A DNA stretch of 64,000 nucleotides from contig NZ_JABXJG010000002.1 in the NCBI RefSeq assembly GCF_013375535.1, positions 124,001 through 188,000 of the forward strand, written 5' to 3'. Below are positions 1 to 14,588 of this stretch, one piece after another; positions within the stretch are counted from its first letter, which is position 1, and every line of letters starts with the position of its first letter. The notes under the pieces were generated by a model. The model had not been told where the DNA came from. It saw nothing but the letters and a program-made list of their open reading frames with translations, and searched no databases. The position numbers and the translations under genes were made by a program. This stretch comes from Sphingobium sp. 15-1. GTDB lineage: Bacteria; Pseudomonadota; Alphaproteobacteria; Sphingomonadales; Sphingomonadaceae.

Positions 1-1
1 G

Positions 2-1057
2 GTGCGCGGCTATTATGGCGATCCCGCGCCGATGATCCTGGCGGGCATCGCCTACGGCACCGAAGCATCGGGCGTGCGGCGGGCGCGAACCGCCGAATTT
101 TCGAAGGCCGACGCCTTCGTCCTGACCGACGGGTCGGGCAATGACCGCTTCCCGATCCGGGCCGGGACCGATGCGGGCGACGTGGCGCAGCCGCTGACGG
201 CGGCGGAAGCAGCCGCGATCCTCGAAGAAGCCTTCACCATCATGAGCCGGGCGCGGGCGCAGATCCGCCAGCCGCTCGACAGCAGGGCGCAGGTGACGAT
301 CAGCCTGGTCGACACCCGAGGGCAGGCGCTGGGCATCGTCCGCTCGCCCGATGCGCCGATCTTCGGCACGGATGTGAGCTTGCAGAAGGCGCGGACGGCG
401 GCCTTCTTCTCCAATTCCCATGCCGCCTCGGACCTGCTGGCGAGCGGCAGCGCGGACGTCGCCGCATTTGTCGGCAAGGCGCGAACCTTCCTCAACGATC
501 CCACCGCGCTGACCGGCCGGCATGCGTTCACCGACCGCGCCAATGGCAATCTGTCCCGGCCCTATTTCCCCGATGGCGAGGTCGGGCGGCCCAATGGCCC
601 CTTTTCCCGGCCCATCGCGCAGTTCAATCCCTTCTCCACCGGCCTGCAATCGGCGCTGGTGGTGGGTGATCTCGCCGCACATCTCGCTTATGTGACGGGC
701 GTCAGCGCGACCGACACGCCGCAGCGCTGCTCGGCGGTTCCGACCGTCTCCAACCAGAACCGGGTGCAGAACGGCATTCAGATATTTCCCGGTTCCGTGC
801 CCATCTATCGCGGCACTATGCTGGTCGGCGCGATCGGCGTGTCGGGCGACGGCATCGATCAGGACGATATGATCGGCTTCCTCGGCCTCAACAATGCTGG
901 GACGCGGGTGGGAGGAATCGGCAATGCGCCCGCCGCGATCCGGTCCGACCAGATCGTCGTCGATCTGGGCAATGCGACCGTGCGGCTGCGCTATGTGAGT
1001 TGCCCCTTCGCGCCGTTCCTCGACAGTTCGTCGCAAAATGTCTGCGCGGGGCTGTAA
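2..1057 (+). CDS. GlcG/HbpS-type heme-binding domain protein (5' partial)
   Basis: The gene enters from outside the window, so the GTG at base 2 may be an internal valine; 351 residues are visible. The middle part (about residues 65-165) matches the GlcG/HbpS alpha-beta fold: a helical stretch AAAILEEAFTIMSRARAQI, then VTISLVDTRGQALGIVRSPDAP and an SLQKARTAAFF helix. The later part carries the second GlcG hallmark, a MLVGAIGVSGDGIDQDDMI strand-loop. It is longer than free-standing GlcG proteins (about 140 aa). It ends 3 bases before an outer-membrane protein gene and a decaheme cytochrome gene, so a heme-related periplasmic role is reasonable. Family membership is by eye; heme binding is inferred from the family. 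Confidence 0.7.
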   Translation: MRGYYGDPAPMILAGIAYGTEASGVRRARTAEFSKADAFVLTDGSGNDRFPIRAGTDAGDVAQPLTAAEAAAILEEAFTIMSRARAQIRQPLDSRAQVTISLVDTRGQALGIVRSPDAPIFGTDVSLQKARTAAFFSNSHAASDLLASGSADVAAFVGKARTFLNDPTALTGRHAFTDRANGNLSRPYFPDGEVGRPNGPFSRPIAQFNPFSTGLQSALVVGDLAAHLAYVTGVSATDTPQRCSAVPTVSNQNRVQNGIQIFPGSVPIYRGTMLVGAIGVSGDGIDQDDMIGFLGLNNAGTRVGGIGNAPAAIRSDQIVVDLGNATVRLRYVSCPFAPFLDSSSQNVCAGL

Positions 1058-1060
1058 GGG

Positions 1061-2884
1061 ATGGGCCTGGTCTCGCTCCTGCTGCTGTTCGCGCTGGCCC
1101 AGCCGGGGGAACCTGTGCCTCCGCCTCCGCCGGAAAACTGGCAGGAGATATTGGACGCCGACGGGCAATCCATCGAGGGCCGCCGCCGTCCCGGTTATGA
1201 AGCGCCGCTGCCCGATGCGGTTCGCCAAGATAATAAAGGCGCCGTTCGAGCGCCGCCGCCTGAGGCTTTCCCCACGGATCAGGTGCCGATCCCCGACCGC
1301 TGGCGGCTGATCGAGAGCTTGGGCGTGGTAAAGGAACGCTGGTTCGATCCCTATGGCCAGAACACGCTGAAGGGCGACCGGCCCATCGACCGCGAAAAGG
1401 TCAAGTGGCTGCCGATCAAGGGCGAGGACTGGTTCTTCGTCGCCAATGCGGTCAGCGACACGGTGCTGGAGCCGCGTACCTTCCCGATCCCGGTCGGCGT
1501 GCAGACGACCCAGCGGCCCGGCAGCCTGGACGTCTTCGGCAAGGATGCGAGCCTTGTGTTCAGCCAGACCTTCATTGGCGGCGTGGCGTTGATCAAGGGC
1601 GCGACCGCCTTCAAACCGCCCGAGATCGAATATCGGTTGACGCTGGCGCTCAACGTCAATCATGTGAATGTGCCCGAACGGCGCGTGCTGTTCGTGCAGC
1701 CGTCCAAGCCGTCGCACCGCACGGACCATTTTTTGGGCGTGCAGGAAGCCTTTGTCGACTATCACCTAGCCAACACCTCGGATCGCTATGATTTCCGGTC
1801 CGTGCGCGTGGGCATCCAGCCGTTCCAGTCGGATTTTCGCGGTTTCCTGTTCAATGACCAGCAGTTGGGTATCCGGCTGTTCGGCAATCGCGACAATAAC
1901 CGTTTCCAGTTCAACCTGGCGGCTTTCTGGCGACTGGAGAAGGACACCAATAGCGGCCTCAATTCCGTTGTGCAGTCACCGCGCAAGGATTGGGTGTTTG
2001 TCGCCAATCTCTACCGGCAGGACTTTCTGATCCCCGGCCTCACCAGCCAGATCACCGCCGTCTACAATATGAACCGCGAGAAGCGGGACGTGGAGATTGA
2101 CGATAACGGCTTTCCGGTGCGCCCGGCGCTGCTTGGCGACTTGCGCGGGCGGGAATATGATGTCGTCTATCTCGGCTATAATGCCGATGGACGGATCGGG
2201 CGGATGAATCTGACGGCGTCTCTTTATGGCGCGCTGGGGGAGGACCGGAACAGCTTCTTCACGTCGAAACCGGCGCAGATCCGCGCTTTCTTCGCGGCGG
2301 CGGAAGCGAGCTACGACAAGGACTGGATGCGGCTTCGCCTGTCGGGTCTCTATGCCAGCGGCGATGGCAACCCTCATGACAATCGCGAGAACGGGTTCGA
2401 TGCGATTTTCGAGAATCCGGTCTTTGCGGGCGCCGATACGAGCTATTGGATCAGGCAGTCCATTCCCTTTGCCGGTGGCGGGCGCGTGATCGGGATCAAC
2501 GGGCGCAACGGCATATTGAATTCGCTGCGCTCCTCCAAGGAGCAGGGGCAGTCGAACTTCAACAATCCCGGCACGATGCTGCTGGGTGCAGGGGCGGATT
2601 TCGACCTGATGCCGGAACTGCGTCTGTCGGCCAATGCCAATCATCTCTGGTTCCAGAACACGGCCACGCTTCAGGCGCTGCGCAATGAGGGCAGCATTCC
2701 CAAGTCGATCGGCTGGGACCTGTCGACGGCGGCGATCTGGCGGCCGCATGCGACGCAGAATATCGTCTTCCGACTGTCGGGCGCGACCTTGCTGCCGGGG
2801 GCAGGATTTCGCGACCTCTTCACCAATAGCGAGCGCAACCGGAATTATTATTCGGTGCTTGCCAATTTGATTTTGAGTTACTGA
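1061..2884 (+). CDS. Predicted outer-membrane beta-barrel protein, partner of decaheme cytochrome
   Basis: The 607-residue protein begins with a Sec-type signal peptide (MGLVSLLLLFALA, likely cut near QPGEPV), followed by a proline-rich stretch. The body is rich in alternating polar and aromatic residues (RLTLALNVNHVNV, YDFRSVRVGIQPF, RMNLTASLYGAL, MRLRLSGLYASGDG). It ends in NYYSVLANLILSY, a terminal aromatic residue as in outer-membrane barrels. No named family is recognised. It starts 3 bases after the HbpS-like gene, and its TGA overlaps the next ATG (TGATG), so the three genes are probably one coupled operon. By analogy with porin-cytochrome systems it may sheathe or anchor the decaheme protein; that is inference. 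Confidence 0.75.
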   Translation: MGLVSLLLLFALAQPGEPVPPPPPENWQEILDADGQSIEGRRRPGYEAPLPDAVRQDNKGAVRAPPPEAFPTDQVPIPDRWRLIESLGVVKERWFDPYGQNTLKGDRPIDREKVKWLPIKGEDWFFVANAVSDTVLEPRTFPIPVGVQTTQRPGSLDVFGKDASLVFSQTFIGGVALIKGATAFKPPEIEYRLTLALNVNHVNVPERRVLFVQPSKPSHRTDHFLGVQEAFVDYHLANTSDRYDFRSVRVGIQPFQSDFRGFLFNDQQLGIRLFGNRDNNRFQFNLAAFWRLEKDTNSGLNSVVQSPRKDWVFVANLYRQDFLIPGLTSQITAVYNMNREKRDVEIDDNGFPVRPALLGDLRGREYDVVYLGYNADGRIGRMNLTASLYGALGEDRNSFFTSKPAQIRAFFAAAEASYDKDWMRLRLSGLYASGDGNPHDNRENGFDAIFENPVFAGADTSYWIRQSIPFAGGGRVIGINGRNGILNSLRSSKEQGQSNFNNPGTMLLGAGADFDLMPELRLSANANHLWFQNTATLQALRNEGSIPKSIGWDLSTAAIWRPHATQNIVFRLSGATLLPGAGFRDLFTNSERNRNYYSVLANLILSY

Positions 2885-5800
2885 TGCGCGCGCTCTTCGA
2901 CACTCTTTCGTCCTTCCCGCGAAGGCGGGAATCCATCTCCCAACCTTGCATTCAGACGCAGCGCCGGAGATGGATGCCCGCCTTCGCGGGGATGACGGTA
3001 GTGGGGTTGAGCATGCTGCTCCTCGCAGCCCTCCTCCTGCCCGTCGCCATCCTCCACGCTTCCGACGCCGAAAAGCCGGTCGAGCGCCACTATATGCCAG
3101 CGCCTCCCGCACCGATGAGCCAGACCGCCGATCAGGTCGCGGCTAAATCGGACGGTTGCTACAGTTGCCACACCAAGACGGACGAACCGTCGATGCACGC
3201 GACCCCTGCGGTCATGCTGGGCTGCACCGACTGCCATGGCGGCAATGCGGCGGTGCGCGGCGATCCGGCGCTGGGCTTCGAAGACCCGGCCTATGTCGCC
3301 GCGCGGGAGAAGGCGCATGTGCTGCCCCGCTATCCCAAGAGCTGGCATTATCCCTCCTCGGCCAATCCGCAGCGCAGCTATACGCTGCTCAACCGGGAAG
3401 CGCCGGAGTTCGTGCGCTTCGTCAACCCCAGCGACTATCGCGTGGCGCGGGACGCCTGCGGTTCCTGCCATATGCAGGTGATCGAGGCGGCGGAGCGCTC
3501 CCTGATGGCGTCGGGCGCGATGCTGTGGGGCGGAGCCGCCTATAATAACGGCATCGTTCCCTATAAGAACTACATCTTCGGGGAAGCCTATACCAAGGAC
3601 GGCCTCCCCGCGAAGATCGTCTCCCCCGGTAGTCCGCCCGGCACGCTGACCGCCGAACAGAAGGCGCGCGGCGCGCTGGCCGAACTCTATCCGCTACCGA
3701 CTTGGCAGGTGACGCCGCCGGGCGACGTCTTCCGCGTGTTCGAACGCGGCGGCCGCAATATCGCCACGCAGTTCCCGGAAATCGGCCTGCCCAATCCGAC
3801 CGGGTCGATCCAGCGGCTGGAGGAACCCGGCCGCCCCGACCTCAAGCAATCGAGCCGTGGTCCCGGCACCGGCCTGCGCGTGGCGATCCCGGTGCTGAAC
3901 CTGCACAAGACGCGCCTCAACGATCCCTATATGTGGTTCATGGGCACGAACGACCAGCCGGGCGACTATCGCCATTCGGGCTGTTCCGGCTGCCATGTCG
4001 TCTACGCCAATGACCGCGAGCCCCGCCACAGTCTGATCTATGCCCAATATGGCCGCGACGGGGAAACCGCCACGGTCGATCCCACGATCACGAACAAGAT
4101 GAGCCATGGCGGGTTGAAGGGTCCTCATGGCGAAACGATCGAGCCGGATCACCCGGTCGGGGCGGTCAAGGAAAGCGGCCATCCGATCCGCCACACATTC
4201 ACCCGCGCGATTCCGACCGCCCAGTGCATGAACTGCCACATGCACCAGCCCAATATCTTCCTGAACAGCTATCTGGGCTATACCATGTGGGACTATGAGT
4301 CCGACGCGCCGTTGATGTGGCCGGAAAAGCAGAAATATCCCACCGCCGCCGAAGTGCATCAGACTTTGGAGCGCAATCCGGAGGGTGCCGGACCACGCGG
4401 CAAGTGGTCGGACCTAGATTTCCTGCGCAACGTCTATGATCTGAACGACAAGGCCCAGGATACGCAGTTTGCGGACTATCATGGCCATGGCTGGAACTTC
4501 CGCGGCATCTTCAAGCGCGACCGCGAGGGCAATCTGCTCGATGCCGACGGCAAGATCGTTTCGCCCGACGATCCGGAAAAATGGCGCAAGAAGGGGGAAG
4601 GCAAGTTCGTCCAGCCCGGCACCAATCCGGGCAAGGCCGTGCACCTGATGGACATCCACGCTGAAAAGGGCCTGCAATGCGCCGACTGCCATTTCGCGCA
4701 GGACAGCCACGGCAACGGCTTTATCTATGGCGAGGTGGCGAACGCAATCGAGATCGGCTGCAAGGATTGTCACGGCACGGCGGACGCCTATCCGACGCTG
4801 CTGACGTCCGGTCCCGCCGCACCGCCAAAGGGCACCAATCTGGCGCTGCTGCGCAATCCGGACGGCAAGCGGCGGTTCGAATGGTATTTCGATGCCAGCG
4901 GGCGTCAGCGGCTGATCCAGCGGTCCATCGTCGATCCCAAGCTGGAATGGGAAGTGTCGCTGGTGAAGGATTCGGTCGATCCGGCCAATCCGCACTTCAA
5001 CGCCAAGGCCGCCCGCGCCAAGCTGATGAGCCGGTCGGGCGCTGAGGATGGCAGCTTCACCTTCGGCCCCGGCGTCGCGAAGGAAGATCGTGCGCATGGC
5101 GACGACAACATGGCCTGCTTCACCTGCCATTTGAGCTGGACCACCAGTTGCGGCGGTTGCCATCTGCCGATCGAGGCGAACTGGAAGACGTCGCTCCACC
5201 ATTATGACGGGGAGGAGACACGCAATTTCGCCACCTACAACCCGCAGGTGGCGCGGGACGAAATGTTCCAGCTTGGCAAGCATATGACGACCAAGGGCAA
5301 TGAAACCGCCCCGGTGCGCTCGACATCGGCGCTGGTCCTGTCCTCCACCAACATCAATCGCGAGCGCATCTATATCCAGCAGCCGCCGGTGTCCGGCATC
5401 GGTTTCTCATCCCAGGCCTTCGCCCCGCATTTCCCCCATACGGTGCGCCGGACCGAGACGAAGACCTGTAGCGACTGCCATTTGTCGGTGAAGGACGACA
5501 ATAATGCGATCATGTCGCAATTATTGTTGCTCGGTACCAATTTCGTGAACTTCGTTGGGCTGAACGCCTGGACCGGCTTGGAGGGCGGGTTCGAGGCGAT
5601 CCGCGTCACCGAATGGGACGAGCCGCAGGCGGTGATCGGCAGCTATCTCCAGAAATATGCCTATCCCGATTATTGGAAACTGCATGTCGAGCAGAACAAG
5701 CGGGAATTGAAGAATTGGGTTCGCGGCAAGTTCTTCGACAAGAAGGCTTCGGGCGAGACCCATGCCGTCGAGGAATTCCGCAATGTCGTGAAGGGCACGG

Positions 5801-6975
5801 CGGATCGCGTCGGCTGCCTGCAACTGCGCGGCGAATATATGTATGTGGCGGAAGGGAAGGGCGGTTTCCGCGTCTATGACGTAGCGTCGATCGCGAACAA
5901 GGGCTTTTCCGAACCGATCGTGAGCGGACCTTTCTCGAAGCTTGGCCATAATACGGGTGTGCCGTCGAAGAACGCGACCTGTATGGCGCTGCCGACCAAC
6001 CAGCCGATCAATCCGCTGCGCAACACCAAGGAACTGCGCGAGATCAACCAGGAGCAGGCCTTCCTGCCGATCTACAGCTATGCGGCGGTGACGGATAGCG
6101 TTGAGGGGCTCATCATGGTCAATATCGAGACCATGGCCGATGGCGAGTTCCGCAACAATTTCCTGAAGCGCGCCGTGACCTGGAACCCCGACGGTGTGCT
6201 GAACGGCGCAAAGCATATCCAGTTGGCTGGGCAGATCGCCTATATCACCGCCGATGTGGGGCTGGTGGTGGTGGACCTCAGCGATCCGCTGCATCCCCGG
6301 CTTGCCGCTGTCCGACCACTGAAGGATGCGCGGGCGAGCGCGATCCAGTTCCGCTATCTTTGGGTGACGGATGCGGAAGGGCTGAAGTTGTTCGACGTGA
6401 CGCGGCTGACAGATCCGGTGGCGGTGCCGTCCGCGACGGTGAAGCTGGCCGATGCGCGGCGCATCTATCTGGCGCGGACCTATGCCTATGTCGCCGCCAA
6501 GGCGGAGGGGCTGGCGATTGTCGACATCACCAATCCGTTAAAGCCGTCCGTCTATGCCAAGGAGACCTTCGGCGGGCAGATGACCGATGTGGAGGATGTG
6601 ATCGTCGGCACGACCAATGCGTCGCTCTTCGCCTATGTCGCGGATGGGCGGAACGGCATGAAGGTGATCCAGCTCACCAGCCCGGCAAGCCAGCCCAATT
6701 TCTACGGCTTCTCGCCCGCGCCCAAGCCGGAACTGATCGCCTGGGCGCGGACGCCCTCGCCGGCGGTTGCGCTGTCCAAGGGGCTGGACCGCGACCGGGC
6801 AGTGGACGAGACAGGCGGGCAGATCGCGGTGTTCGGGCGATTGGGTTCACGACCGTTTACGCGGCCTGAGATGGAGCGGCTGTTCCTGACCTCGAAGGGG
6901 ATTCCCTATAAGGTCAGCGATGAGGTGGATATGAAGGGTTGGCGGCCGCCGCTGAAGGTTCCGCTCGGCCTGTAG
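2884..6975 (+). CDS. Decaheme c-type cytochrome with C-terminal LVIVD propeller repeats
   Basis: Ten CXXCH heme sites are visible (CYSCH near residue 92, then CTDCH, CGSCH, CSGCH, CMNCH, CADCH, CKDCH, CFTCH, CGGCH, and CSDCH near residue 862). After about residue 970 come five LVIVD-type blades (for example YMYVAEGKGGFRVYDV, IAYITADVGLVVVDLSDP, YAYVAAKAEGLAIVDITNP), a fold typical of extracellular adhesion or cell-surface propellers. The first 40 codons from the ATG at 2884 read through a palindromic repeat (FPRRRES...AFAGMT). A normal signal peptide (VVGLSMLLLAALLLPVAILHASDA) follows, so the working start may be 2992 or 3013 instead. The ATG at 2884 overlaps the upstream stop as TGATG. The protein is probably exported and moves electrons in the periplasm or at the outer membrane. 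Confidence 0.9.
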   Translation: MRALFDTLSSFPRRRESISQPCIQTQRRRWMPAFAGMTVVGLSMLLLAALLLPVAILHASDAEKPVERHYMPAPPAPMSQTADQVAAKSDGCYSCHTKTDEPSMHATPAVMLGCTDCHGGNAAVRGDPALGFEDPAYVAAREKAHVLPRYPKSWHYPSSANPQRSYTLLNREAPEFVRFVNPSDYRVARDACGSCHMQVIEAAERSLMASGAMLWGGAAYNNGIVPYKNYIFGEAYTKDGLPAKIVSPGSPPGTLTAEQKARGALAELYPLPTWQVTPPGDVFRVFERGGRNIATQFPEIGLPNPTGSIQRLEEPGRPDLKQSSRGPGTGLRVAIPVLNLHKTRLNDPYMWFMGTNDQPGDYRHSGCSGCHVVYANDREPRHSLIYAQYGRDGETATVDPTITNKMSHGGLKGPHGETIEPDHPVGAVKESGHPIRHTFTRAIPTAQCMNCHMHQPNIFLNSYLGYTMWDYESDAPLMWPEKQKYPTAAEVHQTLERNPEGAGPRGKWSDLDFLRNVYDLNDKAQDTQFADYHGHGWNFRGIFKRDREGNLLDADGKIVSPDDPEKWRKKGEGKFVQPGTNPGKAVHLMDIHAEKGLQCADCHFAQDSHGNGFIYGEVANAIEIGCKDCHGTADAYPTLLTSGPAAPPKGTNLALLRNPDGKRRFEWYFDASGRQRLIQRSIVDPKLEWEVSLVKDSVDPANPHFNAKAARAKLMSRSGAEDGSFTFGPGVAKEDRAHGDDNMACFTCHLSWTTSCGGCHLPIEANWKTSLHHYDGEETRNFATYNPQVARDEMFQLGKHMTTKGNETAPVRSTSALVLSSTNINRERIYIQQPPVSGIGFSSQAFAPHFPHTVRRTETKTCSDCHLSVKDDNNAIMSQLLLLGTNFVNFVGLNAWTGLEGGFEAIRVTEWDEPQAVIGSYLQKYAYPDYWKLHVEQNKRELKNWVRGKFFDKKASGETHAVEEFRNVVKGTADRVGCLQLRGEYMYVAEGKGGFRVYDVASIANKGFSEPIVSGPFSKLGHNTGVPSKNATCMALPTNQPINPLRNTKELREINQEQAFLPIYSYAAVTDSVEGLIMVNIETMADGEFRNNFLKRAVTWNPDGVLNGAKHIQLAGQIAYITADVGLVVVDLSDPLHPRLAAVRPLKDARASAIQFRYLWVTDAEGLKLFDVTRLTDPVAVPSATVKLADARRIYLARTYAYVAAKAEGLAIVDITNPLKPSVYAKETFGGQMTDVEDVIVGTTNASLFAYVADGRNGMKVIQLTSPASQPNFYGFSPAPKPELIAWARTPSPAVALSKGLDRDRAVDETGGQIAVFGRLGSRPFTRPEMERLFLTSKGIPYKVSDEVDMKGWRPPLKVPLGL
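2909..2997. repeat. Palindromic REP-like repeat
   Basis: Two 32-base arms (2909-2940 and 2966-2997) are inverted copies with three mismatches by eye, separated by 25 bases. The core is CCCGCGAAGGCGGGAATCC. It is the kind of dispersed palindrome that translates as FPRRRES and AFAGMT. It lies directly after the stop of the barrel gene and inside the first 40 codons of the decaheme cytochrome reading frame. Confidence 0.85.
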
Positions 6976-7386
6976 GACAAAGAGATTTACGCCGGATTTC
7001 GGCCATTTCATGCCGAAGTTCACACCATTCGCGCGCGTGTGCCTGCGCGCGCGTGTACGAAGGCGGGATTTTATCGGACGTTTCAAAGAGGCATGTGGGA
7101 TAGAGCGGTCGGCGTGAAATAGGACAGGCTAAATCGAGATATGTTGGAAAAATAGGATGTTTTTTTGAAAAGCCTGTGGTCATTGGGTTACGTTTGATCC
7201 TAGGCCACGCCTTCATTTAAGGGAGGCGTATCCGGTTGGCTTTGTCGATTTGGAGAGCAGCGGGTTTCCGGCTCAAGGCCGTGATGACTGTAAGAAGAGG
7301 GTCTGAAAACGACCAGTTGTTGCCGTTCAACAGGATTATGTCGCCACCCCATTGCGGAAATTATCGATCAATAGATAAGGTCGGGA
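6976..7386. other. Intergenic stretch, no gene seen
   Basis: These 411 bases between the decaheme cytochrome and a small membrane protein hold no convincing reading frame. A direct repeat GCGCGCGTGT occurs twice near 7031-7055 and could form a GC-only hairpin. The rest (7090-7386) is visibly richer in A and T than its surroundings. Confidence 0.5.
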
Positions 7387-7794
7387 ATGTTTAGACCGCT
7401 GATCGCATTTTTGCTGGCTCCGTTCCCAGCGGCATTCTTTCAAGCCATCATCGTGGCGATATGGCCGAAGGAAGGCATGGGCGTGTTCCAGCATCCGGCT
7501 TCCATGTTTGCGGCCATATGCCTGTTATTTTACATTTTTGGCTTTTTGCTGGGCTTACCTTTGCTTCTGCTCTCACGCAGACGGTTCCAATCAACGTTGC
7601 GAGGTTACGCCTGGGGAGGCGCTGTCGCCATCTCTTTACCGATTGTGATCGCCCTCGCTGTCGTTGCGTCTCGCGGCCAACTTTCCGTTTATGTCGCCCT
7701 CTATAATTTGATTTTCTTTATCATAGGAGGCGCTGTCGCTGGCACTTTGTTCCGCTATATCAAAGACCCTCTGCGGGTGGCACAAGTGAAATAA
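7387..7794 (+). CDS. Small four-helix membrane protein, unknown function
   Basis: The 135-residue product is strongly hydrophobic with four likely membrane helices: LIAFLLAPFPAAFFQAIIVAIW, MFAAICLLFYIFGFLLGLPLLLL, GYAWGGAVAISLPIVIALAVVA and LYNLIFFIIGGAVAGTLF. An AAGG lies about 9 bases before the ATG. No family is recognised. Base composition is lower in GC than the flanking cytochrome genes, and the next gene is also a small membrane protein on the other strand. The pair may be recently acquired cargo; this is a guess from composition only. Confidence 0.6.
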   Translation: MFRPLIAFLLAPFPAAFFQAIIVAIWPKEGMGVFQHPASMFAAICLLFYIFGFLLGLPLLLLSRRRFQSTLRGYAWGGAVAISLPIVIALAVVASRGQLSVYVALYNLIFFIIGGAVAGTLFRYIKDPLRVAQVK

Positions 7795-7938
7795 TCGATA
7801 AATGCCCTCCCGTCTGCAAGCGACCATTCGTTGCCTCTTTGGCACCAATTTTTCATTTCAAGGACCGGACCGGCAGCTTCTTAATTCTGTCTCTCAAACG
7901 GCCATTCCGAAATAGCGACGAACGACATGGGCTGATCT

Positions 7939-8163
7939 CTAGGTTCCGACGCCCATCGCTTTTCCGATGAGAGCCAGAAACATGAAAATCAGATACATAA
8001 CTGCCAGCCATCCCAAGGGCGCAAATATGCTCACCAAAATCAGAACCGAAATACGTTTCCAAGTTGGTGCGGATCGGAGAAAAGGGGCAGCCCTTCTTGT
8101 GGGAATTAACGAACTAGCCAGTTCAAATATGCCGGAAATTGCAGGACCCAACCAGTCAGCCAT
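7939..8163 (-). CDS. Small membrane protein, hypothetical
   Basis: A 74-residue frame with one long hydrophobic segment (ISVLILVSIFAPLGWLAVMYLIFMFLALIG), long enough for two short helices or one long one, behind an amphipathic N-terminus. Its start codon at 8163 lacks a strong ribosome-binding site. It is supported only by its membrane-protein character and by the absence of an overlapping gene. It could be a chance frame. Confidence 0.4.
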   Translation of the reverse strand: MADWLGPAISGIFELASSLIPTRRAAPFLRSAPTWKRISVLILVSIFAPLGWLAVMYLIFMFLALIGKAMGVGT

Positions 8164-8279
8164 TCATTGATGCTATCACCCTAAGCGGACGGTAGATACA
8201 TCTTAATTCGATGTCGGCTATCGATCCTACCGACCCCGAACCTGCCAGTCCGCAATCCACCCATCTCCGCCAAAGACCA

Positions 8280-8351
8280 TCATGCTCCCGCGAAAGCAGG
8301 ATTCCAGTTCTGCTGTCGGGGCTGGGTTCCCATCTTCGCCGGAACATGGTG
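8280..8351. repeat. Degenerate REP-like palindrome
   Basis: The arms TGCTCCCGCGAAAGCAGGAT (from about 8282) and TGGGTTCCCATCTTCGCCGG (from about 8326) are imperfect inverted copies of the repeat seen at 2909 and 9276. It lies between the small membrane gene and the phosphodiesterase gene, just downstream of the latter's stop at 8376. Confidence 0.55.
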
Positions 8352-8375
8352 GTCCACAATGGTTGGGCGCTTCAG

Positions 8376-9224
8376 CTAGACCGGCCGTTCATCGATCAGC
8401 GTCCGCACCAGCGGCTGCATTCCGGCGTCGAACTTGGCCAGCATCACATGCTCATCGGCCGTTTCGAAATGGGTGATCAGGCCATGGTCCGTCCAGCGAT
8501 GCAGCGCGTAGGCGGGTGGGTCCGCGACGATCATCGGGCGGTTGTCGGGGCTTTCCGGGTCCATGGGCCGCATGTCGAGCGCCAATTGGGGCGCGGTCGA
8601 GGAGCAGATGGCGATGGTCGTGCCCCGCCATGGCGCGGTGATGGCGCGGTGGATGTGGCCGCAAAGGATGGCCTGGATATTGGGTCGGCCTGCGATGGTG
8701 GCCGTGAAGCGCTGGACCCACGGTTCTTCCGGGTGGGTGTTCATCCAGTCGATACCGACTTCCACCGGGGGGTGGTGCATGACGATCAGCGTCGGCGTGG
8801 CGCCGTCTTCATCCAGTCGGGCGGAGAGCCATTTCGCGCGGCGTTCGCAGAAGGCGCCGCCGTGGCGGTCCGGCTCCAGCGTGTCGAGCATGATGATCCG
8901 CCGGTTCTCCAGTGGGATCACATATTGGACGAAGCCGTCTTCCTGGGGGATGTGAGGGAAGTGCTGGGCGAAATGGGCGCGGTCGTCATGATTGCCCATG
9001 CAGGGCCAGACCGGGAAATCGCATTGGCTGAAGGCATTGGCGAGGCGGCGATAGCTGTCCGCGTCTCCCCGATCGGTCAGGTCGCCGGTCGCCAGCAGCA
9101 GGTCCGGGCGGTTGGGGCCATCGTTCAGGGCGCGGAGCACCTGGTCCAGCCGCTTGCGGTTGAACTCGGCGGGGTTGTCGGGGTCGAAACCCAGATGGAT
9201 GTCCGTGACCTGTGCGATCAGCAT
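8376..9224 (-). CDS. CpdA-like class III metallophosphoesterase
   Basis: The 282-residue protein has the full calcineurin-like metal site in order: D8-x-H10 (VTDIHLG), ATGDLTDRG, GNHDD, MHHPP and GHIHRA. This set and length fit the CpdA/GpdQ family of 3',5'-cAMP or glycerophosphodiester phosphodiesterases acting in the cytoplasm with two divalent metals. GGGGAG lies about 10 bases before the ATG. The neighbouring operon encodes a protein with two cyclic-nucleotide-binding domains, which makes a cAMP-degrading role attractive, but substrate choice cannot be read from sequence. Confidence 0.88.
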   Translation of the reverse strand: MLIAQVTDIHLGFDPDNPAEFNRKRLDQVLRALNDGPNRPDLLLATGDLTDRGDADSYRRLANAFSQCDFPVWPCMGNHDDRAHFAQHFPHIPQEDGFVQYVIPLENRRIIMLDTLEPDRHGGAFCERRAKWLSARLDEDGATPTLIVMHHPPVEVGIDWMNTHPEEPWVQRFTATIAGRPNIQAILCGHIHRAITAPWRGTTIAICSSTAPQLALDMRPMDPESPDNRPMIVADPPAYALHRWTDHGLITHFETADEHVMLAKFDAGMQPLVRTLIDERPV

Positions 9225-9275
9225 TGGCCTTTGCTCCCCATTTTTATGCGTCTTTGTCTACCCTTAAGAGCGGCA

Positions 9276-9339
9276 TGCTCCTGCGAAGGCAGGAGCCCAG
9301 TTCCGTCGTTTCAACTGTGCTCCTGCCTTCGCAGGAGCA
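9276..9339. repeat. REP-like palindrome overlapping a cytochrome C-terminus
   Basis: The arms TGCTCCTGCGAAGGCAGGAG (9276-9295) and GCTCCTGCCTTCGCAGGAGC (9319-9338) extend further to a near-perfect inverted repeat including AACTG/CAGTT. It belongs to the same family as the repeat at 2909. It supplies the last nine or so codons and the stop of the FHA-multiheme gene on the minus strand. Confidence 0.8.
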
Positions 9340-11179
9340 CATGATAGGCTGACATAGTCGGCTCTTTCTGCCTGTCTGCTCCATCTTTCCCAATCGAACG
9401 GTTGGCGGGTGCCCATGGGGCTCCCTCACCGCTATGATAGCTATGGCACATGGCGCAACCGGAGGGTACGTTCGCCTTGGACTTTTCCCCGCCATGGCAG
9501 GTGCGGCAACTGTCGAGGCCGGGCAGCAGCAATTGCTTCGCATCGTGCGATTTGGGCGCGGCGTGGCAGCTTTCGCATTTTTCTGTGCGATGTGCGGCAT
9601 GGTCGAACCAACCGTTCATCATATAGCGCATCGGTTGGTGCACCGGCAGCACTTGCCAGTTGGCGTTGCCGTTGGCGCCCGGAGGGGTGACGGTGTGGCA
9701 GTCATAGCAAGCGCCGCCCTTGGAGAAGACCGTCCGGATGGCGTCGTCGGCGCGGGAGGGGCGGGCTGCGACCGCGCCGAAATAGGCGTGGTAGATCTGC
9801 CCCTGCGCATAGTCGCCGGGCCGCCGCCGGGTCATGCCGCCCAGAGCGATGGGCTGGGCCGGGCCGGTCGAGCGGTAATAGGCGCGCAGGTCCGCGATCA
9901 CCTGATCGGGCTGGCCGTGGCGGAGCGTGCGGACGGTGCCGCCGATCGTCTCGAAGGCGAGGCTGTGGCACATCTGGCAGTCGCGTTCCATGTCCACCGG
10001 CAGGAAGCGCACGCCATCGGCGGTCGGCTTGTGGCAATCCTTGCAGGCGAGGGCGTTGCCAAAGCCAGTTTGCGCTTTCATCGTGCGCGCCATTTTCGCG
10101 ACGCCGCCAGTGGCCGACAGATGGATGTCGTGCGGGAATTTGAGGCCGCTGTCGTCCATCGGCTTGCCGTCGAGCGAGGCGCGGGTGAAGCGGGGGTGCT
10201 GGCCGGGCACCGTCTGGACGAGGGCCGAGAATTGCGGGTGACTGGTGCCGAAATCTCCGGCATTGCCGAGTTTCGTGTCCTTGAGGCGATCCTTCAGCGT
10301 GCCGTGGCAGTCGGTGCAGAAAGCTTGCGGAGCGGGCTGCATCGGGCCTGCGCCCTCATGTTCGCGGTGGCAGTCGACGCAGGCGCCTTCGGGCGGCTTG
10401 CCGAAGGCGCTGGCGACCCCCGCCAGCAATTGGCCGCCCAGGCCCGGTTCGGCGCGGGCCATGGCGATGCGGGTCGCGGGGGCGTGATCGTGCACATCCT
10501 TGTGGCAGGTCTGGCAGGCATTGTCGCGAACCGAGACGAAGGCCTTTTGATGGCAGGTTTCGCAGCGGCCCTCCAGCGCGTGGTGGGCTTGGCTGAGCGG
10601 GCCTGAGGACCAGCTCTTGTCGCCCATGACCGTGTAGATGTTGCGGCTGTCGTTGGTCGGGCGGTTGGCGTAGCTCCAGATGGGCAGGGCAAGGAAGCCG
10701 ATCAGGATCGCCAGAGCCATACCCCATGCCGTCAGACGCTTGCCGGGCAGCAGGCTGCGCAGGGAAAAGACCTTTGTCTCCTCCTTTTCCTCCGAGGCTT
10801 CCGACACGGCGTCGACGCGGCGGATGGAGAGGATGGTCGTGCCGTCCGCTTCTCCGTCACTGGGCCTCGACACGGTGATGCGATGGCCGCCGAAGCGCAG
10901 TTCCGCGCCCTTGGCGGGGTCGATCTCGGCGCGCAGGACGGTGCGACCTTCAAGGTCGAAGCCCAGCGTGCCGGTGGCGCGGACGCGGATGGTGCGCTCG
11001 TCGACCTGCTCGATCCGGGCATGGTCCGGCTCCAGCGCAAGGTCGGGCAAGTGGATGTCGTTTTCCGCCGAGCGGCCCAGCGAAAGCTGCGGCTTGGGCA
11101 GGGTGGCGGCGCGGACGATCTCGCGGCCATCGGCGGTGAGACTGATCTGACGGACTAGAAAGCTCATTGGCGCGCTCAC
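9311..11179 (-). CDS. FHA domain fused to decaheme c-type cytochrome, single-pass membrane protein
   Basis: 622 residues. The N-terminus (about 8-105) is an FHA domain (LSLGRSAENDIHLPDLALEPDHARI). The usual serine of the SxxH loop is replaced, so phosphothreonine binding may be weakened. A single membrane helix follows at about 150-171 (TAWGMALAILIGFLALPIWSY). The periplasmic part has ten CXXCH sites: CETCH (206-210), CQTCH, CVDCH, CTDCH, CKDCH, CQMCH, CYDCH, CESCH, CRTCH and CAMCH. The GTG start overlaps the stop of the cytochrome-b-like gene (GTGA); an ATG at 11167 is an alternative. The C-terminal tail (HVLLRRQEHS) is encoded by a palindromic repeat. Heme attachment and topology are firm; a signalling role for the FHA domain is inference. 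Confidence 0.9.
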   Translation of the reverse strand: MSAPMSFLVRQISLTADGREIVRAATLPKPQLSLGRSAENDIHLPDLALEPDHARIEQVDERTIRVRATGTLGFDLEGRTVLRAEIDPAKGAELRFGGHRITVSRPSDGEADGTTILSIRRVDAVSEASEEKEETKVFSLRSLLPGKRLTAWGMALAILIGFLALPIWSYANRPTNDSRNIYTVMGDKSWSSGPLSQAHHALEGRCETCHQKAFVSVRDNACQTCHKDVHDHAPATRIAMARAEPGLGGQLLAGVASAFGKPPEGACVDCHREHEGAGPMQPAPQAFCTDCHGTLKDRLKDTKLGNAGDFGTSHPQFSALVQTVPGQHPRFTRASLDGKPMDDSGLKFPHDIHLSATGGVAKMARTMKAQTGFGNALACKDCHKPTADGVRFLPVDMERDCQMCHSLAFETIGGTVRTLRHGQPDQVIADLRAYYRSTGPAQPIALGGMTRRRPGDYAQGQIYHAYFGAVAARPSRADDAIRTVFSKGGACYDCHTVTPPGANGNANWQVLPVHQPMRYMMNGWFDHAAHRTEKCESCHAAPKSHDAKQLLLPGLDSCRTCHGGEKSKANVPSGCAMCHSYHSGEGAPWAPANRSIGKDGADRQKEPTMSAYHVLLRRQEHS

Positions 11180-12063
11180 CAGTAGAAGAAGACGCTGACG
11201 ATATGCGCGGTCAGCGCGGCCAGCAGGGCAAAGGTGGCGGGCACATGGACGTAGAGCCAGATTTCCAGCAGCGCCTTGAGCTTGAGGTGCCGTCGCAGGC
11301 GCGCCAGCATCGCCTGCTTGCGTTCCAGCAGGGCGTCGATGCGCTCCAACGGGTGGTTGCTGGAATTTGGCCCGGTGTCGGGCTGGTCGCCAGTCCAGTG
11401 GCGGAGCGCGGCTTGCGCTGTGGCGGTGGCGCAGCGGGGGTAGCCGCCCGACAGGCGGTTGAGCAGGCTGCCGCCGAAGGGGTCCTGTTCCAGCGACTGG
11501 CGGACAAGCGTGGCCTTGTCGTGGGGGAGGGGCTGGGCGGCGTCATGGAGTTGGCGGTCGATGGCGCGCACGGCGTCCAGCATCTGCACCTGCGTCATTT
11601 CGGCGCGGTTGTTGCTGAGCGCGGCGGGCAGGGTGGCGTAGACGGTGATGCCGAACAGGCCGGACAGGATGACCAGCATCATCAGCGCATAGGCCAGCGT
11701 GTGGACGTTCCAGCCAAGCTGGAAGCCGGTGTGCAGCGTGGCGATGACGATCAGGCTGAGGCCGAGATAGACATGGGCGGAAGTCCAGGCCTTCAGCGAC
11801 CAGCGGCCGCGCGTCATGGCGCGCTTGCGCAGGCCCAGCAGGGTCAGCCAGAGGATGAGCAGTACGCCGATCGTGCCCATGGTGTAGCCGTACCAGCTAC
11901 CGCCATTATGGTGCGGCGTGACGTCGACCAGCATATAGCTGGCGATGGCGAGGACGCAGATCAGCGTCGCGATCTTCAGCCAGCGGAAACCGGCATGGCG
12001 CAGGAAGCCGTCATGCAGCACTTCACCCTTGGCGCGCCGGGTGGGGGCGGCTCTCGTCGCCAT
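11176..12063 (-). CDS. Cytochrome-b-like integral membrane protein
   Basis: 295 residues with about five membrane helices: LKIATLICVLAIASYMLV, GTIGVLLILWLTLLGL, SAHVYLGLSLIVIATLHTGF, LAYALMMLVILSGLFGITVY and, at the C-terminus, ATFALLAALTAHIVSVFFYW. Histidines within or next to helices (SAHVYLG, ATLHTGF, NVHTLAY, YVHVP, TAHIV) could ligate b-type hemes, as in cytochrome b561 or NrfD-free quinol oxidation modules. The ATG overlaps the upstream stop (TGATG), and its own stop overlaps the next GTG, so the three genes are translationally coupled. It probably links the cytoplasmic iron-sulfur flavoprotein, or the quinol pool, to the periplasmic hemes. The exact family is not certain. Confidence 0.75.
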   Translation of the reverse strand: MATRAAPTRRAKGEVLHDGFLRHAGFRWLKIATLICVLAIASYMLVDVTPHHNGGSWYGYTMGTIGVLLILWLTLLGLRKRAMTRGRWSLKAWTSAHVYLGLSLIVIATLHTGFQLGWNVHTLAYALMMLVILSGLFGITVYATLPAALSNNRAEMTQVQMLDAVRAIDRQLHDAAQPLPHDKATLVRQSLEQDPFGGSLLNRLSGGYPRCATATAQAALRHWTGDQPDTGPNSSNHPLERIDALLERKQAMLARLRRHLKLKALLEIWLYVHVPATFALLAALTAHIVSVFFYW

Positions 12064-14588
12064 CAGTTCGCCTCCCGATCCAGGCGGGCGACGGTCAGGA
12101 AATCCTCCGGCGCGACGCGGATCGCGGCGCCGGTGGGGCAGGCGCGCACGCAGGCCGGGCCGCCCTCAATGCCGGAACACATGTCGCATTTGATCGCCTT
12201 TTTGGGCTTTTCGACGCCGGGTTCGGCGTTTTTGTAGCGCCATTTCTTCGACGGTTCGCCGGGGCCGGGGCCTTGGCCGAAGAACATCCAGCTCAGCAGG
12301 CTGGGCTTCTTGGGCGGGACGCTGTCCATGCGGATGACGCCATAGGGGCAGTTGCGCTGGCAATTGCCGCAGCCGATGCAGGTTTCGTCGATGAAGACCT
12401 CTCCATCCGGGCCGCGATGGATGGCGTTGGGCGGGCAGTCGGCCATGCAGTGCGGATGCTCGCAATGGCGGCAACTGGTGGGGACGTGCAGATGGGCGTA
12501 GGTGCGGCCCGCTTCCCGGTCGAGGCGGGAGAGACCGTCATGGCTGTCGGCGCAGGCCTTTTCGCAATTGTCGCAGCCGACGCAGAGATGTTCGTCAATC
12601 AGCAGCACGTCGGTCGCTTCGCCAATGCCGTTGTCGACTAGGAATTTCGCGGTTTCCGAATACATGTCGACGACGTTCGAGAAGCTGTCCTTGCGGCTTT
12701 CGATGAAGGCGTTGACGTCCTGGCGGGAGGCCATGTCGCGGCGGGCTCGCTCCAGCAGGGCGGGCTTGGTGGCCATCAGCCGGGCGAAGGCCTCGCCGTT
12801 CAGCTTGATGACTTCGGACTTGACCGTTGCCTTGACCGTAGCGGTGCGCGGGCCGCCTGCGATAAGGGCCATTTCGCCCACATAGCTGCCGGCGGGGAGG
12901 TAGGAGAGGAAGACGTTCTTCCCGCCGATCTTCTTCTCCACGATCATGGAGCCGACGCGGATCACATAGATGTCGTTGCCGAGGTCGCCTTCGGTGATGA
13001 TAGGCTCGCCCGCCTTGACGGTCTGGATTTCCGCCGTGTCGAGCACTTCGGCAAGGTCCGCCGGGGTCAGGCCCGCGCCGAAAAGTTGCAGCAATTGCCG
13101 CTCGGTCGATATGCGGGTGATGGCGCGCTTGGCCGGGGGGTTGGAGGACATGAGCTTCAGCGCCGCGGTGCGCGACACTTCCACCATGATCGAATCCGCG
13201 CCCGCCCGCACCGTGGCGCCGCGGCGGCGACCGGAGATCAGGCCGACCTCCCCGAAGATCGATCCCTGGCCGATGGGGACTTCGAGCGTGGGGCTGACCT
13301 CGACCAGTGCCTGGCCCTGCGCCACGCCGAAGAGGGAGGAGCCGGGGTCGTATTTTTCGAAGATCGTCTCGCCCTTGCGATAGGCGCGTACTTCGCTGTC
13401 GAGCATGAATTCGCGCATCTGGAGGGGGGAGAGGCCCTCCAGGATGGAGACGTTGGAGCGGAGGAACTCCAGCCATTGGTCGACGCTCTTCCTTTCCGGC
13501 AGGGCGGCGAATTTGGCGGCCAATATGGGTTCGTCGGCGGGCTTCAAATCCCTGTTGCCGTTGATGAACTCGACGACGTCATAGCCCTGGTTCATGCAAT
13601 GCTTGATCAGCGGATAGCCCGCCAGCGCGCCGATCACGAAAATGCCGGGCGCGGTGCTTTCGAAGACCGGGGACAGTTTCGGGAAGGCGAGGCGATCGCC
13701 GCTGGTGAATTCGATGCCGCAGCTTTCCACGAAGGCGCGGGGCGGGGCGGAGCCCATGCGCGCGATGATGCGGTCGCATTTCAGCTTCACCTCGCCGTCG
13801 CGGCTGTCGAGCGTGACATATCCCGGCTCGATCTTCGCCGTGGTGGCTTCGGTCATGATGGAGAGGCGGCCAGCCTCCGAAGCGGCCATCAGCGCCTTGA
13901 CGTTCGCGGCCTTGGCGCTGGCGAATTCGGTCGAGCGGTTGAGGATGGTGACGGCATTGCCCTGCGCCTCGTCGGCGGCGAGGCCCAGCGCATTCTCAAT
14001 GCCTGCGTCCCCGGTGCCTACGACGAAAATATGCTCGTCATTATAAGCGGCTGGATCGTCTAGTTGATATTGTACATGAGGAAGGTCAGCGCCGGGCACG
14101 CGCATCAGGTTGGGGTTGCCCTGCGTGCCGATGGCCATGATCACCGCGTCGGCTATGACTTCCCGCCCGTCGCTCAGCGTCAGGCGGTAGGGCGGGGCGA
14201 GGCGCTGGATTTCCTTCGTGTCGGTCGTGCCGTCGCGCTTGCGCTCGACGATCTTCTGGACGCTGCCGGGGATGGGATCGCCGGTGCCGGCGATTGCCTT
14301 CACTTCGGCGTTATAAGCGACGTTGACGCCCTGCTCGGCGGCCTGCGCGTTCCAGCGGTCGAGAATCGATTCGCGCTTCCCAGCCTCGAAATCGCAGTCG
14401 GAACGCAGCACGAGCTGGCTGGGCGTCGCCATCACATGCTTGCCCTTCTGATATTTGAAGATGGTGTCGGACAGATGGTCCGTCTTCTCGATCAGCAGGT
14501 GCGAAAGCCCCAATTGCGCGGCCCGCGCGGCCGCACTCAGCCCCGCCGGCCCCGATCCGACGATCGCGATACGCACGCGGTCAGTCAA
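12063..14588 (-). CDS. Flavoprotein fused to two cNMP-binding domains and a 4x[4Fe-4S] ferredoxin module
   Basis: 841 residues in three parts. Residues 1-345 are a two-dinucleotide-fold flavoprotein (GSGPAG at 11-16; VVGTGDAG at 189-196). Two cyclic-nucleotide-binding domains follow, with phosphate-cassette-like loops GEVGLISGRRRGATV (446-460) and GEMALIAGGPRTATV (571-585). Residues 664-825 form a HybA/DmsB-type ferredoxin with CVGCDNCEKAC, CRHCEHPHCMADC, CIGCGNCQRNC and CDMC...CVRAC. There is no signal peptide, so it is cytoplasmic. The start is TTG at 14588, with GGGGG about 8 bases upstream. It heads the operon with a cytochrome-b-like protein and the FHA-decaheme protein. It likely passes electrons between NAD(P)H or a reduced carrier and the membrane, gated by a nucleotide; the direction of flow is unknown. 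Confidence 0.88.
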   Translation of the reverse strand: MTDRVRIAIVGSGPAGLSAAARAAQLGLSHLLIEKTDHLSDTIFKYQKGKHVMATPSQLVLRSDCDFEAGKRESILDRWNAQAAEQGVNVAYNAEVKAIAGTGDPIPGSVQKIVERKRDGTTDTKEIQRLAPPYRLTLSDGREVIADAVIMAIGTQGNPNLMRVPGADLPHVQYQLDDPAAYNDEHIFVVGTGDAGIENALGLAADEAQGNAVTILNRSTEFASAKAANVKALMAASEAGRLSIMTEATTAKIEPGYVTLDSRDGEVKLKCDRIIARMGSAPPRAFVESCGIEFTSGDRLAFPKLSPVFESTAPGIFVIGALAGYPLIKHCMNQGYDVVEFINGNRDLKPADEPILAAKFAALPERKSVDQWLEFLRSNVSILEGLSPLQMREFMLDSEVRAYRKGETIFEKYDPGSSLFGVAQGQALVEVSPTLEVPIGQGSIFGEVGLISGRRRGATVRAGADSIMVEVSRTAALKLMSSNPPAKRAITRISTERQLLQLFGAGLTPADLAEVLDTAEIQTVKAGEPIITEGDLGNDIYVIRVGSMIVEKKIGGKNVFLSYLPAGSYVGEMALIAGGPRTATVKATVKSEVIKLNGEAFARLMATKPALLERARRDMASRQDVNAFIESRKDSFSNVVDMYSETAKFLVDNGIGEATDVLLIDEHLCVGCDNCEKACADSHDGLSRLDREAGRTYAHLHVPTSCRHCEHPHCMADCPPNAIHRGPDGEVFIDETCIGCGNCQRNCPYGVIRMDSVPPKKPSLLSWMFFGQGPGPGEPSKKWRYKNAEPGVEKPKKAIKCDMCSGIEGGPACVRACPTGAAIRVAPEDFLTVARLDREAN

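Follow-up and report, generated by a model that had tools for sequence, protein, structure and literature searches.

The window analysed here is a 64,000-nucleotide stretch of the Sphingobium sp. 15-1 genome (G000:C2:124001-188000; 5.8 Mb in three contigs, with C2 spanning 1.56 Mb). Its left part carries two operons on opposite strands whose products make up a candidate trans-envelope electron-export system. The plus-strand operon comprises the genes for an HbpS-like lipoprotein, an outer-membrane porin and a decaheme cytochrome ending in an LVIVD propeller (decaheme-LVIVD). The minus-strand operon comprises those for a flavoprotein with iron-sulfur clusters (flavo-FeS), a cytochrome b-like membrane protein, a second decaheme cytochrome with an FHA domain (FHA-decaheme) and a SpdA-like phosphodiesterase; the first three of these are referred to below as the triad (Table 1). 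The CXXCH pattern TGYNNNNNNTGYCAY matches ten times in each of the two decaheme genes and 21 times in the window, compared to 3.4 ± 1.9 times in shuffled sequences. Inspection of the DNA showed overlaps of the TGATG type between the porin and decaheme-LVIVD genes and between the flavo-FeS and cytochrome b genes, and a GTGA overlap between the cytochrome b and FHA-decaheme genes; three bases separate the HbpS stop codon from the porin start. The HbpS gene begins 914 bases 5′ of the window, in the adjoining upstream stretch (L002). There it overlaps, through an ATGA, the gene directly before it, which encodes a c554-type cytochrome with four CXXCH motifs and one CX4CH motif (L002 13708-15090). 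This cytochrome is a seventh member of the set, lying just outside the window.

Table 1. Features of the two operons, in window coordinates (aa, amino acids).
Feature	Position	Strand	Remarks
HbpS/GlcG-like lipoprotein gene, 3′ part	1..1057	+	whole protein 656 aa; start G000:C2:123087
Outer-membrane porin, 607 aa	1061..2884	+	predicted 18-strand AlgE-like barrel after N-terminal ~120 residues
Decaheme cytochrome with C-terminal LVIVD propeller	2884..6975	+	10 CXXCH; LVIVD Pfam 63.2 bits
Palindromic interspersed repeat, in frame, 5′ end of decaheme-LVIVD gene	2908..2998	n/a	inverted self-match, copies elsewhere
SpdA-like cyclic-nucleotide phosphodiesterase gene	8376..9224	-	NCBIfam SpdA 154.8 bits (cutoff 400); Pfam Metallophos 72.9 bits
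FHA domain, transmembrane segment, decaheme cytochrome, 622 aa	9311..11179	-	10 CXXCH; transmembrane segment by eye
Cytochrome b-like inner-membrane protein (IMP), PCC3/PCC4 IMP type, 295 aa	11176..12063	-	WX3HX13H motifs
Cytoplasmic NAD(P)H-FAD, 2x cNMP-binding, four [4Fe-4S] protein, 841 aa	12063..14588	-	TTG start; Pfam domains

Genome-wide searches for the porin, decaheme-LVIVD, FHA-decaheme and flavo-FeS families covered 147 genomes of the order; the cytochrome b, HbpS and c554 families were traced by neighbourhood only. Porin and full-length flavo-FeS genes were each found in 25 genomes (146 genomes giving a flavo-FeS match of any kind). Decaheme-LVIVD matched strongly in 25 genomes, or 28 if weak matches are counted, and FHA-decaheme matched in 25, or 26 with a single weak match. 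The same 25 genomes are involved in all four cases and all belong to the window's own family; being related to each other, they do not amount to 25 independent events. Within six genera (g1, g3, g4, g6, g7 and g16) some genomes carry all four genes and others carry none, a pattern that implies repeated joint gain or loss. The two decaheme genes lie no more than 20 kb apart in 16 of the 25 genomes. The operons are far apart on one contig in five (G035, G065, G080, G110, G119) and on different contigs in four (G074, G097, G121, G133), two of which, G097 and G121, might have them as neighbours across a gap. At 45 loci examined, many of them ending at contig edges and some representing halves of a single genome, the families recognised were decaheme-LVIVD (36), porin (35), HbpS (32), c554 (30), FHA-decaheme (26), SpdA-like (25), cytochrome b (24) and flavo-FeS (24). 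Together, these data support the idea that the two operons constitute one functional unit.

The system extends beyond the family. A scan of genome contigs with six patterns, one of which lies in the interspersed repeat, yielded an incomplete list of at least 33 loci; 28 of these are real relatives (one a short match) and five match the repeat only. The relatives come from Sphingobium, Novosphingobium, Porphyrobacter, Tsuneonella and Sphingopyxis, and from metagenome-assembled genomes (MAGs) of a Phenylobacterium, a Nitrospira (54% identity) and a deltaproteobacterium (50%), the parts of the last (G435) being on two contigs. Twelve Sphingobium megaplasmids carry relatives, and a Sphingopyxis indica plasmid has the porin operon and, in a search of that replicon alone, no flavo-FeS match. 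In the Nitrospira MAG (L094) and at locus L092, the flavo-FeS, cytochrome b, FHA-decaheme, HbpS, porin and decaheme-LVIVD genes all lie on one strand; L094 also includes the end of a c554-type gene. All eight further genomes checked that have the decaheme-LVIVD gene have the FHA-decaheme gene as well. In samples taken more widely, five of 299 members of the phylum have a full-length decaheme-LVIVD gene (13 give any match), as do two of 198 genomes from the phylum of the Nitrospira MAG (29 give any match). In the former sample, which we took from shared labels to be the same in three separate searches, six genomes have the porin, namely the five with decaheme-LVIVD and G296, and nine have a full-length flavo-FeS gene (17 at E 1e-40). 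In G296 the triad, HbpS and porin genes are present; the genome search gave no decaheme-LVIVD match, and only 333 bases of contig follow the porin gene.

The domain content of the triad points to an electron path through the inner membrane. The flavo-FeS protein matches the Pfam families Pyr_redox_3 (93.5 bits), cNMP_binding (105.9 bits, in two stretches) and Fer4_11/PF13247 (43.7 bits), and two Rossmann motifs are recognisable by eye. Alignment of ten sequences, the window's included, showed 16 ferredoxin-type cysteines to be invariant. Also invariant are G446, E447 and R456 in the first cNMP domain and R581 in the second, where E572 is nearly so; we take these residues to be the ones contacting the ribose and phosphate of cyclic AMP. 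The membrane protein has Pfam matches below cutoff only (cytochrome b561, 25.8 vs 30.1 bits). Both WX3HX13H motifs, identified by eye in the window's protein, are found in 24 of 24 relatives and an SGXXG motif in 20 of 24, and the protein probably carries two b hemes. Passages of He et al. 2017 (PMC5566968) describe this very pattern in the IMP of the PCC3 and PCC4 clusters, that of PCC3 having five transmembrane helices, and read it as binding two b hemes. Genomes G295 and G179 encode flavo-FeS and cytochrome b as a single polypeptide of about 1120 aa (L166 3052-6420, L168 7850-11203); after the fused open reading frame (ORF) comes a 9-heme FHA-type cytochrome, and before it a small ORF containing a single CXXCH. 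In the FHA-decaheme protein, the ten CXXCH motifs and nine further histidines are invariant among 12 sequences, again with the window's among them. Its N-terminal FHA domain scores 17.2 bits in the window's protein, below the cutoff of 20.7, and exceeds this cutoff in the Nitrospira (43.8 bits), L092 (35.3) and deltaproteobacterial (32.0) relatives. Domain content, fusion and gene order thus agree, and the inner half fits a role in NAD(P)H oxidation and electron transfer across the inner membrane.

The decaheme-LVIVD protein would be 1363 aa long if started at the coupled ATG (position 2884) and 1327 aa long from an ATG at position 2992, directly before the signal peptide. The palindromic repeat sits between the coupled ATG and the signal peptide and is translated as ..SFPRRRES..WMPAFAGMT..; it is found also in Sphingobium fuliginis (L075) and gave no match in the close relatives L098, L073 and L074. 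The possibility that the TGATG coupling to the porin gene is an artefact of the repeat was rejected, since relatives that lack the repeat start similarly just after the porin. Pfam recognises the LVIVD domain. Aligning 19 sequences, including the window's, showed the ten CXXCH motifs and 14 other histidines to be invariant, with long conserved stretches between the hemes (about 130 residues per heme). A simple lipobox pattern flagged 3 of 36 relatives, convincingly in the Nitrospira protein and possibly in L078. The protein scores 61.0 bits with the ExtM model NF040943, far below the equivalog cutoff of 800. Comparison by hhalign of residues 53-848 with an ExtM-like 644-aa protein gave a probability of 100 (E 1.4e-39, 488 columns), this partner itself being below the ExtM cutoff at 312.7 bits. 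These comparisons indicate that the heme region is remotely related to ExtM, a protein of the Geobacter selenite/tellurite cluster. Identity to the Nitrospira relative is 54% for decaheme-LVIVD, 40% for the porin and 24% for FHA-decaheme; better conservation of decaheme-LVIVD between phyla is as expected of an enzyme.

The porin was modelled with AlphaFold2 as an 18-stranded barrel, with moderate confidence (predicted local distance difference test, pLDDT, 68; predicted TM-score, pTM, 0.71) and with the first 108 residues unreliable. The best Foldseek match was AlgE (E 3.7e-16, about 10% identity), and MtrB was absent from the best 50 of 863 matches. In Pfam the sequence has matches below cutoff only (Alginate_exp, 14.9 vs 25.2 bits), and searches of PDB sequences with the decaheme-LVIVD and porin profiles gave nothing at E 0.01 and E 1. 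AlgE has 18 strands and MtrB about 26, and barrels of the AlgE/OprD class are channels for molecules. A simple geometric estimate gives a free width of roughly 23 Å for 18 strands vs 38 Å for 26. A barrel of this width would probably not accommodate an MtrA-type wire, and a decaheme wire inside the pore is unlikely. The HbpS protein matches Pfam PF03928 in each of its halves and has a lipobox-like N-terminus, as judged by a simple pattern, in 30 of 32 relatives; its role may be to provide or shield a cofactor, heme or another. The CX4CH motif of the c554-type cytochrome accompanies the four CXXCH motifs in 28 of 30 relatives, the deltaproteobacterial one included.

A preliminary description of this DNA had listed the two operons and proposed that they form one unit. 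The ORFs it relied on exist, with the two sets of ten CXXCH motifs, the HbpS-like, LVIVD, cytochrome c3, Pyr_redox and 4Fe-4S assignments made by Pfam, and the coupled starts and stops (TGATG, GTGA) in place. Some of its identifications needed completing. To the flavo-iron-sulfur protein are added the two cNMP-binding stretches, which it does not mention; to the cytochrome b-like protein, whose cytochrome b561 match is below cutoff, the IMP motifs; to the second decaheme protein, described there as anchored in the inner membrane, the N-terminal FHA domain; and to the HbpS-like protein, the part of its gene outside the window and the preceding c554-type gene. The view of a single unit is supported by the four families, which share one set of 25 genomes among the 147, and by the recurrence of the set in other phyla. 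Two outcomes had been named as refuting it: a barrel of a known unrelated family, or operons that are seldom together in related genomes. Neither came about. The operons co-occur, and the barrel family, present in 25 of the order's 147 genomes and in 6 of the 299 sampled from the phylum, was found only alongside this system in these samples.

Among known systems, MtrCAB, PioAB and MtoAB resemble the cluster in combining a barrel, decaheme cytochromes and an inner-membrane electron donor. They differ in that the barrel here has 18 predicted strands and an AlgE fold, and the input is an NAD(P)H-linked flavo-FeS protein instead of CymA-type quinol oxidase. Curated models bear out the earlier statement that no Mtr or Pio homologue is recognisable. 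The FHA-decaheme protein misses the cutoffs for MtrA/DmsE (TIGR03508, 12.6 vs 192.2 bits) and MtrC/OmcA (PF22113, 27.8 vs 30), decaheme-LVIVD matches neither set of models at E 0.1, and no MtrB/PioB model appears among the NCBIfam matches of the window proteins. Likeness to AlgE/OprD-class porins lies in predicted fold and strand number.

Closer resemblances were found to the PCC3 and PCC4 clusters, which, as described in passages of PMC5566968, have an IMP with two WX3HX13H motifs and SGXXG, an adjoining iron-sulfur part (pfam13247), a porin and multiheme cytochromes. In subgroup II of PCC4 the pfam13247 gene is upstream of the IMP gene; here the same domain is in the flavo-FeS gene, directly upstream. 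A sphingomonad genome of the window's own family, G145, has a cluster that we call PCC3-like from the published description (L176, G145:C28, 7419-19212), encoding a 436-aa flavo-FeS protein, an IMP with both WX3HX13H motifs, cytochromes of 24 and 49 hemes and an 889-aa SPOR-domain protein. Its IMP and flavoprotein are homologous to those of the window (49.8 and 222 bits), which suggests that the inner-membrane core is shared with PCC3. According to the same passages, PCC3 differs in that its porin is very large and its cytochromes hold tens of hemes each (medians 34 and 21), as opposed to a 607-aa porin and 10-heme cytochromes here, and PCC4 in having three periplasmic cytochromes of 4, 5 and 10 hemes and no surface cytochrome. 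The multiheme proteins of the present cluster are the c554-type and the two 10-heme cytochromes; no further multiheme gene and no tetraheme was seen in it. The cNMP domains, the FHA anchor, the 18-strand porin, the LVIVD propeller and the HbpS lipoprotein set it apart from PCC3 and PCC4 as published. The main text of PMC5566968 has no match for FAD (flavin adenine dinucleotide), cNMP, cyclic nucleotide or forkhead, and its sections 15-18, on porin-cytochrome clusters, mention neither a cyclic-nucleotide input nor an FHA anchor.

The Geobacter Ext cluster, extHIJKLMNOPQS, shares with this one, as far as passages of PMC5877670 go, a modest porin, an ExtM-related multiheme protein, an inner-membrane cytochrome b, an iron-sulfur protein and several cytochromes c. 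It differs in that the Rieske protein ExtO is replaced here by the flavo-cNMP-ferredoxin protein and in that the LVIVD propeller is added here. Neither a Rieske (ExtO) nor a rhodanese (ExtH) domain was among the Pfam matches listed for the genes scanned, these being the best 25 of 29 families for flavo-FeS and the large TpsA ORF being left out. By sequence, then, the cluster belongs among the porin-cytochrome systems and differs from them in porin size, heme number and its cNMP, FHA, LVIVD and HbpS parts. As judged by titles and abstract openings, no published account of it was found in the literature searched, nor any co-mention of LVIVD with a multiheme cytochrome; cyclic nucleotide binding and decaheme are mentioned together solely in PMC4999443, in a passage where the terms are unrelated.

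We propose that the two operons and the c554-type gene encode one trans-envelope electron-export system, fed by NAD(P)H and ending in a decaheme enzyme that is associated with the outer membrane and has a porin to itself. This we consider somewhat probable. NAD(P)H would reduce the FAD of the cytoplasmic flavo-FeS protein, from which electrons would pass along the four [4Fe-4S] clusters, then to the membrane protein with its two b hemes and on to the inner-membrane-anchored FHA-decaheme protein. They would then reach decaheme-LVIVD, perhaps by way of the pentaheme c554-type protein. The decaheme-LVIVD protein would be an ExtM-related terminal enzyme working with the dedicated 18-strand porin, and the HbpS lipoprotein may have its part in the supply or protection of a cofactor.

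In the form of this proposal that we favour, itself quite possible, decaheme-LVIVD is a periplasmic terminal reductase and the porin admits its substrate, a small oxidised compound such as an oxyanion, a metal complex, a quinone or an aromatic molecule. A terminal reductase at the outer membrane is preferred because of the narrow barrel, the relation to ExtM and the high conservation of decaheme-LVIVD; the channel role of AlgE/OprD-class barrels agrees with it. The hhalign match over the heme region and the 61.0 bits with NF040943 speak for it; the distance of this score from the equivalog cutoff speaks against it. Passages of PMC5877670 implicate ExtI, an outer-membrane porin, in selenite and tellurite reduction and make an analogous proposal for it and its Geobacter cluster.

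The main rival is a true extracellular conduit, in which the porin holds decaheme-LVIVD, the hemes cross the outer membrane and the propeller stands outside, allowing reduction of minerals, humics or an electrode. The two genes are adjacent and co-occur, the inner modules of this and the PCC3-like cluster are homologous, PCC3 being a candidate conduit in passages of PMC5566968, and LVIVD repeats were described in cell-surface proteins (PMC2447325). The estimated width of the AlgE-like barrel argues against this arrangement, as do the large number of residues per heme and the lack of a lipobox in most relatives, and we regard it as somewhat unlikely. An MtrCAB-like crossing had been part of the preliminary description; it is not supported as stated, the barrel being predicted with 18 strands and decaheme-LVIVD being a large, ExtM-related protein that is no compact wire. 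Of the candidate conduit put forward there, the inner-membrane half holds, and the outer half may instead consist of a terminal reductase and a channel for its substrate.

Electron uptake, with outside Fe(II), Mn(II) or an organic donor being oxidised and quinone or NAD(P) being fed, appears distinctly improbable, the named hosts including many genera of heterotrophs and the fusion of an NAD(P)H-flavin-FeS protein to cytochrome b (L166, L168) fitting NAD(P)H oxidation more simply. The origin of PCC3 and PCC4 as proposals from the genomes of Fe(II) oxidisers, with PCC3 in a Mn(II)-oxidising Erythrobacter (passages of PMC5566968), is in its favour. That two unrelated redox operons came together by chance, as might occur on a contig of this size or on megaplasmids like those of Sphingobium, is very improbable in view of their co-occurrence in 25 of 25 genomes, including nine where they are not side by side, and of the one-strand clusters at L094 and L092.

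Electron export by this system may be under second-messenger control. A CHASE2-nucleotide-cyclase gene lies upstream (L002) and the SpdA-like gene adjoins that of FHA-decaheme; the cyclase would make the cyclic nucleotide and the SpdA-like enzyme remove it. Given the two cNMP domains, the SpdA-like gene beside the triad in sphingomonads (recognised at 25 of the 45 loci) and a cyclase gene at some loci, flavo-FeS is probably gated by a cyclic nucleotide through these domains. It seems unlikely that cyclic AMP or cyclic GMP from the adjacent enzymes binds flavo-FeS directly and thereby opens or closes the flow of electrons across the envelope to a terminal cytochrome at the surface or outer membrane. 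If true, this would be the redox counterpart of a ligand-gated channel, in aerobes not known for metal respiration.

Several observations weigh against the proposed export system or its regulatory arm. Genomes G147, G179 and G295 have a full-length flavo-FeS gene and gave no porin or decaheme-LVIVD match in genome searches; in all three the triad is without outer genes nearby (in G147 it is at a contig end), and a second flavo-FeS copy in G147 has no triad partners beside it. Hence the inner part is not dependent on the outer one, and it is more widely spread than the outer module. The heme region of decaheme-LVIVD was modelled by AlphaFold2 with a pLDDT of 37, its fold not being predictable. 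The SpdA-like protein scores below the cutoff of the SpdA model, and only some of the loci have the cyclase gene next to them, with no cyclase match at the Nitrospira locus; cyclic-nucleotide gating may therefore not be universal. No FNR box with zero or one mismatch was found upstream of either operon, which gives no sign of low-oxygen control; one-mismatch matches number five in the window (4.4 expected by chance) and none in L002.

Should the export proposal hold, the cluster would represent a conserved module for electron export, occurring across more than one phylum and also on plasmids, among aerobes to which such a capacity is not usually ascribed. With these genes defined, one can ask whether reduction of some compound takes place at the outer membrane of aerobic sphingomonads and whether electron flow is gated directly by second messengers. 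The co-occurring set could serve as a marker for annotating Sphingobium proteins now called hypothetical or multiheme cytochrome.

The region directly upstream of the cluster (L002 7-13595; G000:C2:108007-121595) encodes a CHAT protein, the CHASE2-nucleotide cyclase, a FecR-like protein (named by eye, without a Pfam match), a ShlB/FhaC-type secretion protein and a 2563-aa ORF, the last two suggestive of two-partner secretion. The two-partner secretion, CHAT and FecR-like genes were rejected as core members, as they are beside the system in only part of the relatives. Downstream of the Nitrospira cluster (L094 15415-17415) lies an ORF with an AVVIGINEY stretch, presumably caspase-like; some sphingomonads have a CHAT protein upstream.

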